38,377 nucleotides of DNA. It comes from Carboxylicivirga sediminis (GTDB lineage: Bacteria > Bacteroidota > Bacteroidia > Bacteroidales > Marinilabiliaceae). The translations under genes and the position numbers were made by a program. The notes below the pieces were generated by a model that did no database searches, was not told where the DNA came from, and saw nothing but the letters and a program-made list of their open reading frames with translations. Position 1 is the first letter of the stretch; each line of letters begins with the position of its first letter. Below, piece by piece: positions 35,457 through 38,377 of the stretch. The stretch is from contig NZ_JAGTAR010000047.1 in assembly GCF_018156225.1 (NCBI RefSeq), positions 1-38,377 on the forward strand, in the 5' to 3' direction.

Positions 35457-35480
35457 CCACTTTAAACCACTTTATGACAC
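35446..35480 (-). promoter_or_regulatory. MraZ-binding-box-like direct repeats upstream of mraZ
   Basis: On the minus strand GTGGT occurs three times with exactly 5 bases between copies (plus-strand ACCAC at 35446-35450, 35456-35460 and 35466-35470), giving a 10-bp period, one helical turn. A degenerate fourth copy GTGTC sits in phase at 35476-35480. MraZ of other bacteria binds short G-rich direct repeats with this spacing. The array covers the putative -33 TTG, so binding should block transcription. Confidence 0.75.
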
Positions 35481-35562
35481 CTGTTGATAACTTTTTCGAG
35501 AAAAAATTCACTCAAATCAGCTACAGGCCGCAGCAGGCAAGAAACGCAAATCAAAATGAAAA

Positions 35563-35583
35563 TTCCGACAATATATGTCGGAA
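35563..35583. repeat. Small perfect inverted repeat
   Basis: TTCCGACA (35563-35570) and TGTCGGAA (35576-35583) are exact reverse complements around ATATA. No gene begins or ends nearby other than mraZ, 160 bp away on the minus strand. It could be an orphan terminator or an operator site. Confidence 0.5.
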
Positions 35584-35621
35584 CTTAGCATACTCATTTT
35601 AATCCTCTTAATTTGTTCGTT

Positions 35622-35703
35622 GACGCAGATTTACCATTGTTTTATAAGCAAAACGCCCAGGAAGCCTTTTCGCTCATAATGCAGAGCTCAAATCTGGCTG
35701 CCA
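35622..35703. repeat. Degenerate copy A of the REPIN-like element
   Basis: The central part CCATTGTTTTATAAGCAAAAC and the following GGAAGCC are shared with the better copies further right, while both hairpins are damaged: the left lacks its second arm and the right reads GCAGAGCTCAAATCTGGC. It is an older, decayed member of the family. Confidence 0.6.
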
Positions 35704-35775
35704 GTGTATCATATAGGAATTTGAAACGGTTTTAAGTAAGAATAACAAAACAGGCAGAAGAAGAACTATCGCATT

Positions 35776-35808
35776 AAACCAGTCAGGATTTTAAATCCTG
35801 ACTGGTTT
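35776..35808. terminator. 33-nt near-perfect palindrome, terminator-like, without a gene
   Basis: AAACCAGTCAGGATTT (35776-35791) and AAATCCTGACTGGTTT (35793-35808) are exact reverse complements around a single T. The stem is strong enough for a transcription terminator and symmetrical for both directions, but no gene ends within 300 bp. As there is no unpaired loop in the simplest fold, a few central pairs would open to form one. Confidence 0.5.
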
Positions 35809-35831
35809 GCCTAACATGCCCCCTAAAACGG

Positions 35832-35897
35832 ATAACTATCCATTCAAAAACCAATAACTATCGATTTACGATCCGATAACTATCGGTTTTTTGTGCA
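35832..35897. repeat. Three tandem 22-bp repeats carrying palindromic GATAACTATC-type sites
   Basis: ATAACTATC starts at 35832, 35854 and 35876, exactly 22 bp apart. In the first copy the site is GGATA-AC-TATCC, in the third CGATA-AC-TATCG; the bases outside the core change as pairs, so symmetry is preserved. The second copy, AATA-AC-TATC, is imperfect. The third is followed by TTTTTT. No neighbouring gene uses it clearly. Confidence 0.6.
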
Positions 35898-35940
35898 ATA
35901 AAAATGGTTACCAAGCACATTTTGCATGCTCCATCAATAC

Positions 35941-35982
35941 ATAACAAAAGCCACACTATCGCTAACGTGCCTTTTGTTTTAT
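35941..35982 (+). terminator. Orphan terminator-like hairpin
   Basis: ATAACAAAAGCCAC (35941-35954) pairs with GTGCCTTTTG (35968-35977) at nine of ten positions, and the 3' side continues into TTTTATT. It looks like an intrinsic terminator, yet no gene lies upstream on either strand, which suggests a decayed transcription unit. Confidence 0.45.
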
Positions 35983-36100
35983 TATACAGGCCGGAGGCCT
36001 TTGTTTAAAGCGACGTAGCCACAGGCATACGCCGAACGATTTACATTATTTAGTTCCTACGTGGAACGAGGTTACAGACTAAAGATTATCTCGAACGAAG
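35983..36100. other. Gene-free spacer with REP-like fragments
   Basis: No coding frame is supported. It has an AGGCC-GG-AGGCC inverted repeat near 35989-36000 and repeat-like text around GCATACGCCGAACGATTTAC (36027-36046) and TTCCTACGTGGAACGAGG (36053-36070), of a kind often dispersed in Bacteroidota genomes. I see only single copies in the window. Confidence 0.35.
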
Positions 36101-36293
36101 TCAAAGACTTCGCTCAGCTGGGGAATTCAATCGAGAGTTATGTATATCTAAAGGGCTTTTTGTTGCTCCAACTCCATATTTAAAAATATCTAATTCAACA
36201 CCATAACTGCCTGTTCCACCATACATATTGACGAATGAAAAATTTCTTGAATCTCCGTCGTAAACTGAAAAACCTGCACTAATTCCAATATTT
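36101..36293 (-). pseudogene. 5'-truncated coding fragment cut by a REPIN-like element
   Basis: On the minus strand one frame stays open from the edge of the repeat at 36293 to a TGA at 36101-36103, without an in-frame start near its beginning. It translates to a glycine-rich, beta-like stretch that includes NIGISAGFSVYDGDSRNFS, VNMYGGTGSYGVELDIF and KYGVGATKSPLDIHNS, followed by a short tail (SPAERSL) encoded in what looks like repeat DNA. The composition resembles the C-terminal end of a real protein rather than chance sequence, but I do not recognise the family. Confidence 0.5.
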
Positions 36294-36399
36294 CCCCTCG
36301 CTGGCGAGGATTTACAATCCGTGCCATTGTTTTATAAGCAAAACATCCTGGAAGCCTGTTTATTCCATAGCACAGATTACAAATCTTCGCTAGTTATGG
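36294..36399. repeat. REPIN-like element copy B
   Basis: Left hairpin around GGATTTACAATCC, conserved centre with GCAAAACATCCTGGAAGCC, right hairpin AGATTACAAATCT. The left and right ends are related as inverted copies (GATTTACAATCCGTGC against GCACAGATTACAAATC). It separates the truncated fragment from the 122-residue gene. Confidence 0.75.
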
Positions 36400-36406
36400 A
36401 TTTCAC

Positions 36407-36775
36407 TCAACGCGGGATTTGTTTCCACCCTTCTGATGGGCTATTCCAAAACTTAGATAAAGCAGGTTTTTCTAGCATTATGAAATTATGCCTAGGATAC
36501 TCAGGATTATACTTAACAAAGAATCGGTGTTTAATTACGTTGTCATATTCAGTAGAAACATGCATTCTTTGTTCATACAAAATATCTGAAACAGTAAACT
36601 CATAATAAACTGTATAACCGTTCCTAAAATTCGCTTTAAAATCTGTAACCATTCCTACAGTATAACGCCCATCCTTTTTGATCTTATTATGTGCAATCTG
36701 AGAATAAAGAACATATCCTACATAACCAAGGATTATTATTAAAACAATTACAACTGTTTTTGGCTTGTTATTCAT
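36407..36775 (-). CDS. Hypothetical protein with one N-terminal membrane helix
   Basis: This 122-residue protein has a membrane helix at about residues 8-25 (VVIVLIIILGYVGYVLYS) preceded by KPK, so it is probably anchored with the rest outside the cytosol or on the inner-membrane surface. The soluble part has beta-strand patterns: YTVGMVTDFKANFRNGYTVYYEFTV, then a KHRFFVKYNPEYPRHNFIM block. This arrangement, a helix followed by a strand-rich domain ending in VKYNPEYP, is found in many small Bacteroidota proteins of unknown role, similar in style to DUF3592. The stop lies 8 bp from REPIN-like copy B, and the last residues may have been altered by it. Confidence 0.65.
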   Translation of the reverse strand: MNNKPKTVVIVLIIILGYVGYVLYSQIAHNKIKKDGRYTVGMVTDFKANFRNGYTVYYEFTVSDILYEQRMHVSTEYDNVIKHRFFVKYNPEYPRHNFIMLEKPALSKFWNSPSEGWKQIPR

Positions 36776-36825
36776 AAGCTACATATTTTCCATTCATAAC
36801 CGTCACTTCCAACAATCCCTTCTCT

Positions 36826-37041
36826 CCCCTCGCTGGCACTAATTTGCAATCCCTACCATTTTTATTACAATCAAAACATCCTGGAAGCCTGTTTATTCCA
36901 TAAGGACTTATTGACATCCTCCATCATTGCATCGACATTCCAATTAGGCTAAACGAATCTAAAAATAATACACTACTCCCCAAAATTTTGATCGTATCTT
37001 ATTAAATACATTCCACATGTCATAATGACATATTTATTTAT
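36826..37041. repeat. Composite repeat CX1: left half of the REPIN-like element joined to sequence X
   Basis: 36826-36902 is the left hairpin and centre of the REPIN-like element (a diverged left arm, but intact CATCCTGGAAGCC). At TTCCATA the usual right hairpin is replaced by an unrelated sequence of about 140 bp (36903-37041) that includes the palindrome ATGTCAT-A-ATGACAT (37017-37031). The same junction and the same 140 bp recur at 37721-37860. Confidence 0.75.
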
Positions 37042-37147
37042 CCCTCGCTGCCGCGGATTTACAATCCGCGCCTTTGTTTTATAAGCAAAACATCCTGGAA
37101 GCCTTTTTATTCCATAGCACAGATTACAAATCTGCGCTAACTATGGG
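37042..37147. repeat. REPIN-like element copy D (best-formed)
   Basis: This copy has a perfect left palindrome CGCGGATTTACAATCCGCG, the conserved centre with TTTTATAAGCAAAACATCC and GGAAGCC, and a right hairpin CAGATTACAAATCTG followed by GCGCTAACTATGGG. It directly follows sequence X1 and precedes the 3' end of the 147-residue gene by 11 bp. Confidence 0.8.
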
Positions 37148-37158
37148 AACGGCATACA

Positions 37159-37602
37159 TCATTCACTTACTCTACGGTGAGCTAAGGTAAATGAAGCTAG
37201 TAAATTATTTAAATAATCAACTTCATGTTTTAGATTATTATCCTGATAAATACGTTCAACTTCATTTAATATTAACTCGTATTCTTTTTTATTCTTAATC
37301 ATTCCATTTTTCTTGACTCTAGCAATACTTCTTAACCTTTTTTCTTCTTCAATATCTTCTCCAATTTCAAGCTTCAACCTTAGCCTTAATTTATCTTTAT
37401 CTTCTGTGGGTAATTCATTCATGAAAGAATTCATTTCTTTATTTATTCCCTTTAGTTCTTTTAATGATTTCGAATTATATGCATTCACTGCTATTGCATT
37501 AAATGCACCCATTGCTATAGAATTAGCTTCATCCTCCATGAAAAAGTTATAAAACACTTTATAACGCAACCAATAATATTGGATTTCATCTTTTTCCTTC
37601 AT
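37159..37602 (-). CDS. Hypothetical, highly charged helical protein (147 residues)
   Basis: I do not recognise the family. The sequence is rich in Lys, Glu, Asn and Leu and is predicted to be mostly alpha-helical, with likely coiled-coil segments around residues 45-95 (KSLKELKGINKEMNSFMNEL and EIGEDIEEEKRLRSIAR) and 105-135. A short less charged segment (MEDEANSIAMGAFNAIAVNAY) lies near the N-terminus; it is not clearly a membrane helix. Composition is AT-rich and unlike the dcw genes. It is enclosed by repeats D and E, so it may have arrived or been kept as an isolated accessory gene. Coding status is likely but not certain. Confidence 0.55.
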   Translation of the reverse strand: MKEKDEIQYYWLRYKVFYNFFMEDEANSIAMGAFNAIAVNAYNSKSLKELKGINKEMNSFMNELPTEDKDKLRLRLKLEIGEDIEEEKRLRSIARVKKNGMIKNKKEYELILNEVERIYQDNNLKHEVDYLNNLLASFTLAHRRVSE

Positions 37603-37656
37603 ATAAATAAATCTTTAAGGCTTTCCAAAATATGTATATTCCATAAAATAGTAAAA

Positions 37657-37860
37657 CCCCTCGCTGCCATCCGCGCCTTTGTTTTATAAGCAAAACACCC
37701 AGGAAGCCATTTTATTCCATAAGGACTTATTGACATCCTCCATCATTGTATCGACATTCCAATTAGGCTAAACGAATCTAAAAATAATACACATCTCCCC
37801 AAAATTTTGATCATATCTTATTAAACACATCCTACATGTCATAATGACATGTTTATTTAT
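37657..37860. repeat. Composite repeat EX2: second copy of the half-REPIN plus sequence X
   Basis: 37657-37720 is a REPIN-like left half in which about 10 bp of the left hairpin are missing (CTCGCTGCC runs straight into ATCCGCGCC). 37721-37860 repeats sequence X of 36903-37041 with few differences by eye. Its inner palindrome here is longer, ACATGTCAT-A-ATGACATGT (37834-37852). Confidence 0.75.
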
Positions 37861-37870
37861 CAATAATGCT

Positions 37871-38057
37871 GCTGGAAGCATTGCGCACTGCTTTGGAGCC
37901 ATTGGGAAGCGCTTTTGCCTGCCATGTTGTCGCTTTGAGCCACTGTGCACCCGGCTGGAACCACCGGGAAGGCGGCTGAAGCCATTGCGCAGCCGCTGGA
38001 GGCACTGTGCGGCGCCTCCGAGCCATTGCGCAGCGGTTGTAAGGCATTGGGAAGCGG
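37871..38057. repeat. GC-rich minisatellite, about nine units of 20-22 bp
   Basis: Nine imperfect units begin at about 37871, 37891, 37912, 37933, 37955, 37976, 37996, 38016 and 38037. Each resembles CTTTGGAGCCATTGCGCAGCG, with GCCATTGCGCAG or GCCATTGGGAAG at the core. The tract is markedly richer in G and C than the DNA around it. Open frames cross it on both strands because the unit is near 21 bp, but the seven-residue periodic peptides they give do not look like a protein, so I treat it as repeat DNA. Confidence 0.75.
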
Positions 38058-38155
38058 ATTAGGGCAAATAACATTCGGGCTAAGACGCAAGACATGAGAC
38101 AGAAGACGCCAAACTCTCGTCCTGGTGCACAGTGCTTAGTAACCAGTGCCCGCAC
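38058..38155. other. Spacer with AGAC-rich simple sequence
   Basis: No gene is seen. Around 38083-38110 the sequence has repeated AAGAC/GAGAC units. This lies between the minisatellite and REPIN-like copy F. Confidence 0.3.
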
Positions 38156-38262
38156 CCCCTCGCTGGCGGGGATTTGCAATCCGTGCCATTATTTATATCC
38201 AAAACATCCTGGAAGTCTTTTTCTTACATAGCACAGATTACAAATCTGCGCTAACTATTGGG
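38156..38262. repeat. REPIN-like element copy F
   Basis: Left hairpin GGATTTGCAATCC inside CTCGCTGGCG, centre CAAAACATCCTGGAAG, right hairpin CAGATTACAAATCTG followed by GCGCTAACTATTGGG. The centre is more diverged than in copies B and D, whereas both hairpins are intact. Confidence 0.75.
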
Positions 38263-38377
38263 TTTATAAGACCGTAGATGCCAGACTAAACACCGCACCC
38301 CCATCTCCCGTCATCCAGCTCATTCAACTTTCAACTCCTCAACTCTAAACTCTTCAACTCTAAACCCCAAACCCTAA
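38263..38377. other. Pyrimidine-rich end of the window
   Basis: No gene is supported. The last 50 bases repeat CAACTC and CTCTAAAC several times, a low-complexity tract of one-strand C, T and A. Confidence 0.35.

Follow-up and report, generated by a model that had tools for sequence, protein, structure and literature searches.

REPINs, as described by Bertels and Rainey (2011; PMC3116915), consist of two inverted REPs with a spacer between them; they can form hairpins, are extragenic and dispersed, and are linked to a RAYT. The same paper also describes clusters in which REPINs and their flanking sequence recur in tandem and, in the passages relevant here, leaves the origin of REPINs open. 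RAYT subclass 2.6 (Bertels group 5) is assigned to the Bacteroidetes, with 'atypical secondary structures', a median length of 179 aa and the listed motifs NH[LIV]H, YIH[QN]NP and WQ (PMC6006769); REPIN pairs, asymmetric ends and RAYT fragments in spacers are absent from the passages of that paper on this subclass. Bacterial MITEs are short, non-coding elements with inverted ends, which look like shrunken insertion sequences (PMC3733652, PMC3116915). The window analysed here, a continuous stretch of 38,377 bases from a Carboxylicivirga draft genome (G000), carries six related elements (A to F), which are REPINs in the broad sense, and we consider it probable that they arose from a hairpin-RAYT-hairpin unit by internal deletion and now form a decaying population without its RAYT. 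All six were found where the original prediction had placed them, with B, D and F intact and A, C and E damaged:

35615 to 35706, plus strand: REPIN copy A, damaged, first hairpin without its 3' arm and second hairpin decayed (model match E 7.8e-5)
36296 to 36399, plus strand: REPIN copy B, intact (member of the model, E 6.9e-25)
36828 to 36905, plus strand: REPIN copy C, 3' hairpin replaced (model match E 1.0e-10)
37043 to 37146, plus strand: REPIN copy D, intact (member of the model, E 2.9e-25)
37659 to 37724, plus strand: REPIN copy E, first hairpin lacking 11 nt and 3' hairpin replaced (model match E 3.7e-8)
38157 to 38260, plus strand: REPIN copy F, intact (member of the model, E 4.4e-22)

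The core AAAACATCCTGGAAGCC, with up to three mismatches, has six matches in the window, each inside one of the elements, where 0.13 are expected; six were reached in none of 100 shuffles. B and D share 92% identity over 105 nt. Both hairpins are present in B, D and F, which are inverted hairpin pairs; the two ends are inverted relatives of each other, as had been claimed, and the single-stranded folds of these three copies beat those of shuffles (z -3.3 to -6.3). The 5' hairpin is partly lost in A and E, and the 3' hairpin is decayed in A and absent in C and E. Since C and E share a duplicated segment of 184 nt (91% identity), the loss of the 3' hairpin in both represents one event that was duplicated; the orthologue of C in C. 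mesophila (G011) retains this hairpin. The hairpins of the intact copies are as follows:

36300 to 36324, plus strand: REP hairpin of B, CTGG...GTGCC flavour, as found 3' of the RAYT at loci L085-L087
36370 to 36394, minus strand: REP hairpin of B, CTAG...GTGCT flavour, as found 5' of the RAYT at locus L082
37047 to 37071, plus strand: REP hairpin of D, GTGCC-type end (here GCGCC)
37117 to 37141, minus strand: REP hairpin of D, GTGCT-type end
38162 to 38186, plus strand: REP hairpin of F, GTGCC-type end
38231 to 38255, minus strand: REP hairpin of F, GTGCT-type end

The two ends of an element usually differ, as 26 of the 33 hairpin pairs in the loci examined combine one GTGCC-type with one GTGCT-type end. 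Of 102 distinct REPs in these loci, 83 have CT[AG]G at the foot of the hairpin (CTGG in 50, CTAG in 33) and none has GT[AG]G at the 5' foot, and we do not assign these hairpins to the canonical GTAG REP class. The family resembles the REPINs described in PMC3116915 in its two inverted REPs with a spacer, its capacity for hairpin formation, its extragenic position, its dispersed copies and its RAYT link, but differs from that description in its low copy number, its usually distinct ends, its CT[AG]G foot, the lack of a full RAYT in the draft genome and a spacer that apparently comes from RAYT coding sequence. As in bacterial MITEs, the window elements are short and non-coding, with inverted ends and the look of shrunken insertion sequences; in place of the plain terminal inverted repeats of 15-30 bp described for MITEs (PMC3733652, PMC3116915), they carry REP hairpins, which are tied to a Y1 (HuH) transposase, and no target-site duplication, which a Y1 enzyme would not be expected to produce, is established for the window family.

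The family is genome-wide. A search of G000 with a model of which B, D, F and a dispersed copy on contig C74 are members, scoring 150 out of 1071 initial candidates, gave at least 12 matches at E<=0.01, six of them outside the window. The REP pattern, with up to one mismatch, is matched on 8 contigs outside the window and weakly on C55, and the same family is present in congeners. A core match at C45:398257 was discarded as chance, as it sits in coding sequence, which we take to resemble Mfd. Comparison with G011 gave no clean empty site for copy A, nor for the C74 element, at whose place G011 lacks about 460 bases that include another repeat. If an ordinary hairpin had merely been duplicated locally, together with the small ORFs between the copies and without any mobile family, this would account for the duplicated C/E segment and for six copies in one orientation within 2.6 kb; such a history is very improbable, as it is largely refuted by the copies found on further contigs and in congeners, and past the element ends no relationship is apparent between the flanks of B, D and F.

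The arrangement of ORFs and elements also recalls an integron-like cassette array, in which small ORFs of the same direction would each be followed within about 10 nt by an element serving as recombination site. The minus-strand ORF 36407-36775 has its stop codon 7 nt past the end of B, and D lies 12 nt from that of the minus-strand ORF 37159-37602; moreover, the gene content of the array differs between G000 and G011, and 7 of the 12 congeners examined have only a short gap at this place. No Pfam family was found above cut-off in the ORFs of the array. We dropped this hardly credible reading because neither G000 nor G011 has a match to the integron integrase TIGR02249 above its cut-off; their 19 and 15 matches below it, of which the best has 107 bits where 265 are required, are similar to those in all 14 control genomes. 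Furthermore, the elements of the G004 cluster have the opposite orientation relative to the ORF, and related elements stand alone elsewhere.

The proposal that the elements are REPIN-like and linked to a RAYT is borne out by the further genomic copies and by the same hairpins beside RAYTs in relatives. At L082 (G001), the RAYT lies between these hairpins, one on each side, and at L085, L086 and L087 (G014) one such hairpin follows about 15 nt after the RAYT stop codon, the genes of L085 and L087 being broken. Three RAYTs of the group were scanned (L083, L086 and L088) and all score above the threshold for REP-associated tyrosine transposase in NCBIfam (NF047646), with only L086 directly adjoining this hairpin. 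Several congener RAYTs, that of G011 included, are directly adjoined by a different hairpin, and G007 has a full RAYT and no hairpin match of this type. The RAYT profile is matched in 15 of 16 genomes, with more than 100 bits in 13; the sole match in G000 has 22 bits, and this search found no full cognate RAYT in that draft of 133 contigs. A RAYT beside the same hairpins is found in relatives (with hairpins on both sides at L082, and adjoining at L086) but not in the window's own draft genome, whose three strong Y1_Tnp genes were rejected as partners since other hairpins, judged by eye, surround them. Contig C98 of G000 matches contig C26 of G011, the nearest relative, at about 95% on both sides of a RAYT segment that G000 lacks, and the junction has a direct repeat about 60 nt long.

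Judged by motifs and length, the RAYT linked to this family fits best into subclass 2.6 (Bertels group 5). Among ten aligned RAYTs, NH[LIV]H is present in eight (NHMH in the other two) and YIH[QN]NP in nine (YIHMNP in one), and nine are 175-188 aa long and one 204. The presence of both motifs in most sequences, the Bacteroidota host, a length near 179 aa and recurring flanking hairpins without GT[AG]G agree with the subclass as described in PMC6006769; unlike that description, the W of WQ is found in all ten and the Q after it in only one.

The earlier statement that the window contains no transposase is correct as far as whole genes are concerned, but a C-terminal RAYT fragment adjoins copy C. 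In addition, the short centre of the window copies appears to correspond to about the last 11 RAYT codons, read on the minus strand:

35640 to 35675, minus strand: centre of A as RAYT C-terminal codons, ERKGFLGVLLIK (rank 5 of 76,684 window positions; 3 of 2000 shuffles)
36330 to 36365, minus strand: centre of B in the same register, E*TGFQDVLLIK (rank 71; 145 of 2000 shuffles, weak alone)
36792 to 36827, minus strand: separate RAYT C-terminal fossil beside C, GEKGLLEVTVMN (rank 1 of 76,684 positions with a score of 28.9; rank 2 scores 17.7)
36863 to 36898, minus strand: centre of C in the same register, E*TGFQDVLIVI (rank 105; 63 of 2000 shuffles)
37077 to 37112, minus strand: centre of D in the same register, E*KGFQDVLLIK (rank 46; 85 of 2000 shuffles)
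37682 to 37717, minus strand: centre of E in the same register, E*NGFLGVLLIK (rank 23; 42 of 2000 shuffles)
38187 to 38229, minus strand: centre of F, outside the codon register, its DNA aligning with RAYT 3' ends

The fossil GEKGLLEVTVMN was equalled in none of 2000 shuffles (nhmmer E 0.015) and is also present in G011 (E 0.012). A dispersed copy in G011 (C1:108685) reads EENGFLDVLVIK, again with 0 of 2000 dinucleotide shuffles as good and an nhmmer E of 0.0027. Of twelve copies, nine, not independent of one another, share the same register and strand, with F, C74 and the copy m2 outside it; for F, 245 of 2000 shuffles gave as good a codon match, on the other strand. At the DNA level, B and D each score 38 against the RAYT end of L082 and 30-32 against that of L083 (0 of 300 shuffles each), these two being the only ones among 12 RAYT 3' ends compared to match B and D beyond all 300 shuffles, and F scores 40 against L083 (0 of 300) and 36 against L082 (1 of 300). 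A profile of the centre, run against 178 kb, has the L083 RAYT end as its top match (E 0.2; best decoy 1.2). With nhmmer, window copies A, D and E score at E 8-30, with a best decoy at 16. The resemblance to the RAYT tail is clear in the G011 C1 copy and fair in A; B to E show it weakly, and F by DNA alignment only.

Longer REPINs carry longer pieces of the gene. Ten units with centres of at least 97 nt were tested, and five of them retain RAYT fragments, comprising the first 30-49 or the last 20-31 residues:

G008: RAYT residues 1-49 inside a REPIN (0 of 630 mononucleotide shuffles)
G032: RAYT residues 2-30 and 1-30 inside two REPINs (0 of 630 mononucleotide shuffles each)
G006: RAYT residues 152-182 inside a REPIN (0 of 630 mononucleotide shuffles)
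G000, contig C103: RAYT residues 163-182 inside a REPIN (0 of 630 mononucleotide shuffles)

Two further units are marginal (1 and 12 of 630 shuffles) and three, C45, G002 and G004 C33, have no clear RAYT piece (89, 254 and 29 of 630). Both ends and a gene piece in common with the whole unit are clear for five of the ten longer units and for the G011 C1 copy. It may be asked whether the short centre is instead filler DNA unrelated to the RAYT, kept because the copies are young and local, its codon likeness being chance. The single-copy statistics are weak, since 2-7% of shuffles do as well as the codon match of B, C, D or E, and a whole-RAYT protein profile detected none of the short centres; the dispersed copy EENGFLDVLVIK, the shared register and strand in spite of their non-independence, the alignment of B, D and F with two RAYT ends at the DNA level and the longer RAYT pieces in sister REPINs argue against chance, and we judge filler DNA unlikely. 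Because longer REPINs keep RAYT fragments and the centres resemble the RAYT end, the elements seem to derive from a hairpin-RAYT-hairpin unit by internal deletion.

The original prediction had also held that the centre is kept better than the hairpins, and had suggested that it has a function of its own. Among seven copies, four of them from G011, the mismatch rate is 0.119 in the centre against 0.187 in the 5' hairpin and 0.125 in the 3' hairpin, and an inner stretch of 18 nt has the lowest rate (0.074); among B, D and F, this stretch is nearly invariant (0.037), but the centre as a whole (0.126) is kept no better than the 5' (0.115) and 3' (0.028) hairpins. The claim of better preservation is thus true only in part: in the seven copies the centre is better preserved than the 5' hairpin, and the good preservation of the inner stretch stands. 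Selection on the centre as a small RNA or protein-binding site would agree with the low rates in the inner stretch and in the seven-copy centre, and with two small stem-loops that the centre of D may form. However, the centre of the C74 copy mismatches seven other aligned copies at 43% (129/300), against 11-23% in its hairpins (18/168 and 41/182), as obtained by difference between alignment totals; other family members have shorter (14-30 nt) or different centres; and none of the 24 pairs of the consensus fold has changes on both sides. An Rfam search of the whole window gave nothing above gathering thresholds and, at E up to 1 over 35500-38377, a single sub-threshold match outside the elements. 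A separate central function is therefore unsupported and quite improbable, as the centre is better explained as the leftover of the 3' end of a RAYT gene.

We propose the following history for the internal-deletion product. The six elements are miniature, non-autonomous mobile elements with two inverted REP hairpins, of a family linked to a Bacteroidota-type RAYT. The sub-family was probably born when a hairpin-RAYT-hairpin unit lost nearly all of its gene, and both ends, about the last 11 codons and a short 3' flank, i.e. the centre, would have been retained. By analogy with IS200/IS605-type biology, the copies may have been spread by a RAYT that worked in trans, with the hairpin ends as its single-stranded DNA substrate, and some copies, such as C and E, also multiplied by ordinary duplication. 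The draft suggests that a cognate RAYT was once present in the window genome and later disappeared from it, and the window copies would now be orphans that decay as they lose hairpin arms.

For the genus as a whole, we think it rather likely that REPINs arise repeatedly by internal deletion, the first or last codons of the gene remaining frozen in the spacer, and that the window centre is such a tail in a population that has outlived its lost RAYT. In titles and abstract openings, with most subscription papers outside the scope of the search, RAYT coding fragments in REPIN spacers were not reported. Related genomes hold a size series of whole units, RAYT-fragment units, 104-nt elements that keep about 11 codons and elements of 73 nt whose spacer measures 14 nt, which provides sequence evidence on how REPINs arise and makes their origin testable from sequence. 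It also serves as a warning that a conserved REPIN centre may lack function.

All six related elements that the original prediction placed in the window were present (A, 35622-35703; B, 36294-36399; C, 36826-36902; D, 37042-37147; E, 37657-37720; F, 38156-38262), with six occurrences of the core sequence against 0.13 expected. Two inverted hairpins, predicted for the family, were confirmed in B, D and F; the other three copies are damaged, with no 3' hairpin in C and E. Since a 184-nt segment (91% identity) is common to C and E, this missing hairpin represents one event; the orthologue of C in Carboxylicivirga mesophila JCM 18290 (G011) retains it. Among 102 distinct REPs, 50 have CTGG at the foot and 33 have CTAG, and none has GTAG or GTGG. 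One GTGCC-type end is paired with one GTGCT-type end in 26 of 33 pairs, and the GTGCC-type end in the window lies on the RAYT 3' side, as at loci L085-L087 of the relative G014.

Dispersal of the family was borne out by a covariance model built from eight 104-nt copies (B, D, F, four of C. mesophila and that on contig C74 of the draft genome of C. sediminis), leaving aside copies with short centres and the three damaged window copies. It gave 12 matches in the draft genome, namely the six in the window and six outside it (C74, C94, C60 twice, C98 and, partially, C103). Allowing at most one mismatch, the hairpin pattern located copies on C60, C94, C98, C100, C103, C74, C44 and C45, with a weak match on C55; a single copy is common to the ends of C100 and C103. 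Hairpin matches occur in 16 of 60 genomes (C. sediminis and 59 relatives), including C. sediminis itself and 10 of 13 congeners. Scanning a genome-contig collection, from which records of the draft genome may be absent, with a 20-base centre pattern returned five stretches, two from C. mesophila and three from unrelated taxa.

The elements lie upstream of mraZ, and the gene across the gap is presumably acyltransferase-like. The gap (window 35480-38377; L116-L127) is an insertion hotspot in the genus: it is short in 7 of 12 congeners examined (G009 lying outside this set), holds other genes in G010, G006 and G002, and in C. mesophila, as in C. sediminis, is occupied by REPINs and small ORFs in an array; the contig of G013 stops too early to show its content. 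The ORFs between the window REPINs are:

36407-36775, minus strand, small ORF, no Pfam family over cut-off
37159-37602, minus strand, small ORF, no Pfam family over cut-off

None of ten array ORFs scanned (these two, five of C. mesophila and three of a G004 cluster) reached a Pfam cut-off. Of the two window ORFs, that at 36407-36775 is conserved in C. mesophila, whose array has other ORFs besides. Where REPINs stand 7-12 nt past stop codons, they could serve as terminators. Three loci of the draft genome have REPINs adjoined by degenerate repeats, about 21-24 nt long and arranged in tandem:

window 37868-38060, degenerate tandem repeats
locus L030, 3086-3300, degenerate tandem repeats
locus L031, 4800-4930 and 5200-5350, degenerate tandem repeats

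A 22-nt repeat containing GATAACTATC also occurs three times at window 35825-35890.

A Y1/RAYT gene flanked by the same hairpins, the presence of which the original prediction gave as a check, was found in relatives. In at least 4 of 14 relatives searched (G001, G010, G011 and G014), the family's hairpins have a weaker Y1 match no more than about 1.5 kb away. The hairpins flank the gene on both sides at L082 (G001), and one stands about 15 nt past the stop of L086 and of the broken genes L085 and L087 (all G014). RAYTs of the same group at L083, L084, L090 and L096 are directly adjoined by a different hairpin. All three RAYTs scanned (L083, L086, L088) exceeded the NF047646 cut-off, and in motifs and length the group fits best with subclass 2.6, equated with group 5, as characterised in PMC6006769, except for the WQ motif, which is seen in one of ten RAYTs. 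RAYTs are described as single-copy in PMC3116915, whereas several similar genes and fragments lie close together at L085 and L087.

PF01797 identified three strong Y1 transposase genes in C. sediminis itself (L001, L002, L003); each is surrounded, by eye, by a set of hairpins of its own, different from those of the family. A profile of ten RAYTs found no full copy in the draft genome, the only match being 22 bits on C133. Across 16 genomes the profile gave some match in 15 and over 100 bits in 13; G005 had none and G012 only 21 bits, and both are also without a hairpin of the family's type, as is G007, where a RAYT is present. C98 of C. sediminis matches both flanks of the C. mesophila RAYT site (contig C26). 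It lacks the RAYT segment and, past the REPIN, another 1.4 kb, and has one copy of an approximately 60-nt repeat that C. mesophila has twice. The simplest reading of these alignments is that recombination removed the segment from C98, while the difference between the C98 and C26 sites might instead reflect a gain in C. mesophila. C. sediminis seems to have lost its RAYT.

Spacers range from 12 to 241 nt among 33 hairpin pairs at the loci examined, and five of ten units with spacers of at least 97 nt hold clear RAYT pieces.

RAYT pieces between hairpins, with shuffles reaching the match
G008, C43: residues 1-49, 0 of 630
G032, first unit: residues 2-30, 0 of 630
G032, second unit: residues 1-30, 0 of 630
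G006, C147: residues 152-182, 0 of 630
C. sediminis, C103: residues 163-182, 0 of 630

The signal was marginal in C11 of C. mesophila (1 of 630) and another G032 unit (12 of 630), and negative or near chance in the spacers of C45, G002 and G004 C33 (89, 254 and 29 of 630).

In minus-strand orientation, the 43-45-nt window centre can be aligned with the final codons and 3' flank of RAYT. B and D scored 38 against the L082 end and 30-32 against that of L083 (0 of 300 shuffles each), with no standout score among the remaining ten RAYT ends compared; F scored 40 against L083 (0 of 300) and 36 against L082 (1 of 300). A profile of 11 RAYT 3' ends matched three long-centre units (E 1e-9 to 4e-11), the C. 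mesophila C1 copy (E 0.0027) and, in one register, A, D and E (E 8-30; best decoy 16). The reverse search over 178 kb ranked the L083 end first (E 0.2; best decoy 1.2), with the L082 end at E 16. Of 2000 shuffles, none reached the C-terminal peptide match of the C. mesophila C1 copy; that of A was reached by 3, that of m1 by 9 (m1-m4 being copies outside the window) and those of B, C, D, E, m3 and m4 by 42-145; by this comparison the F, m2 and C74 centres are not in the RAYT C-terminal codon register. The whole-RAYT profile detected no short centre. A second RAYT fragment, GEKGLLEVTVMN, adjoins C and is the top C-terminal peptide match in the window. The six window elements are REPINs, a kind already known, and their unusual centre is, from these alignments, best read as the tail of a RAYT.
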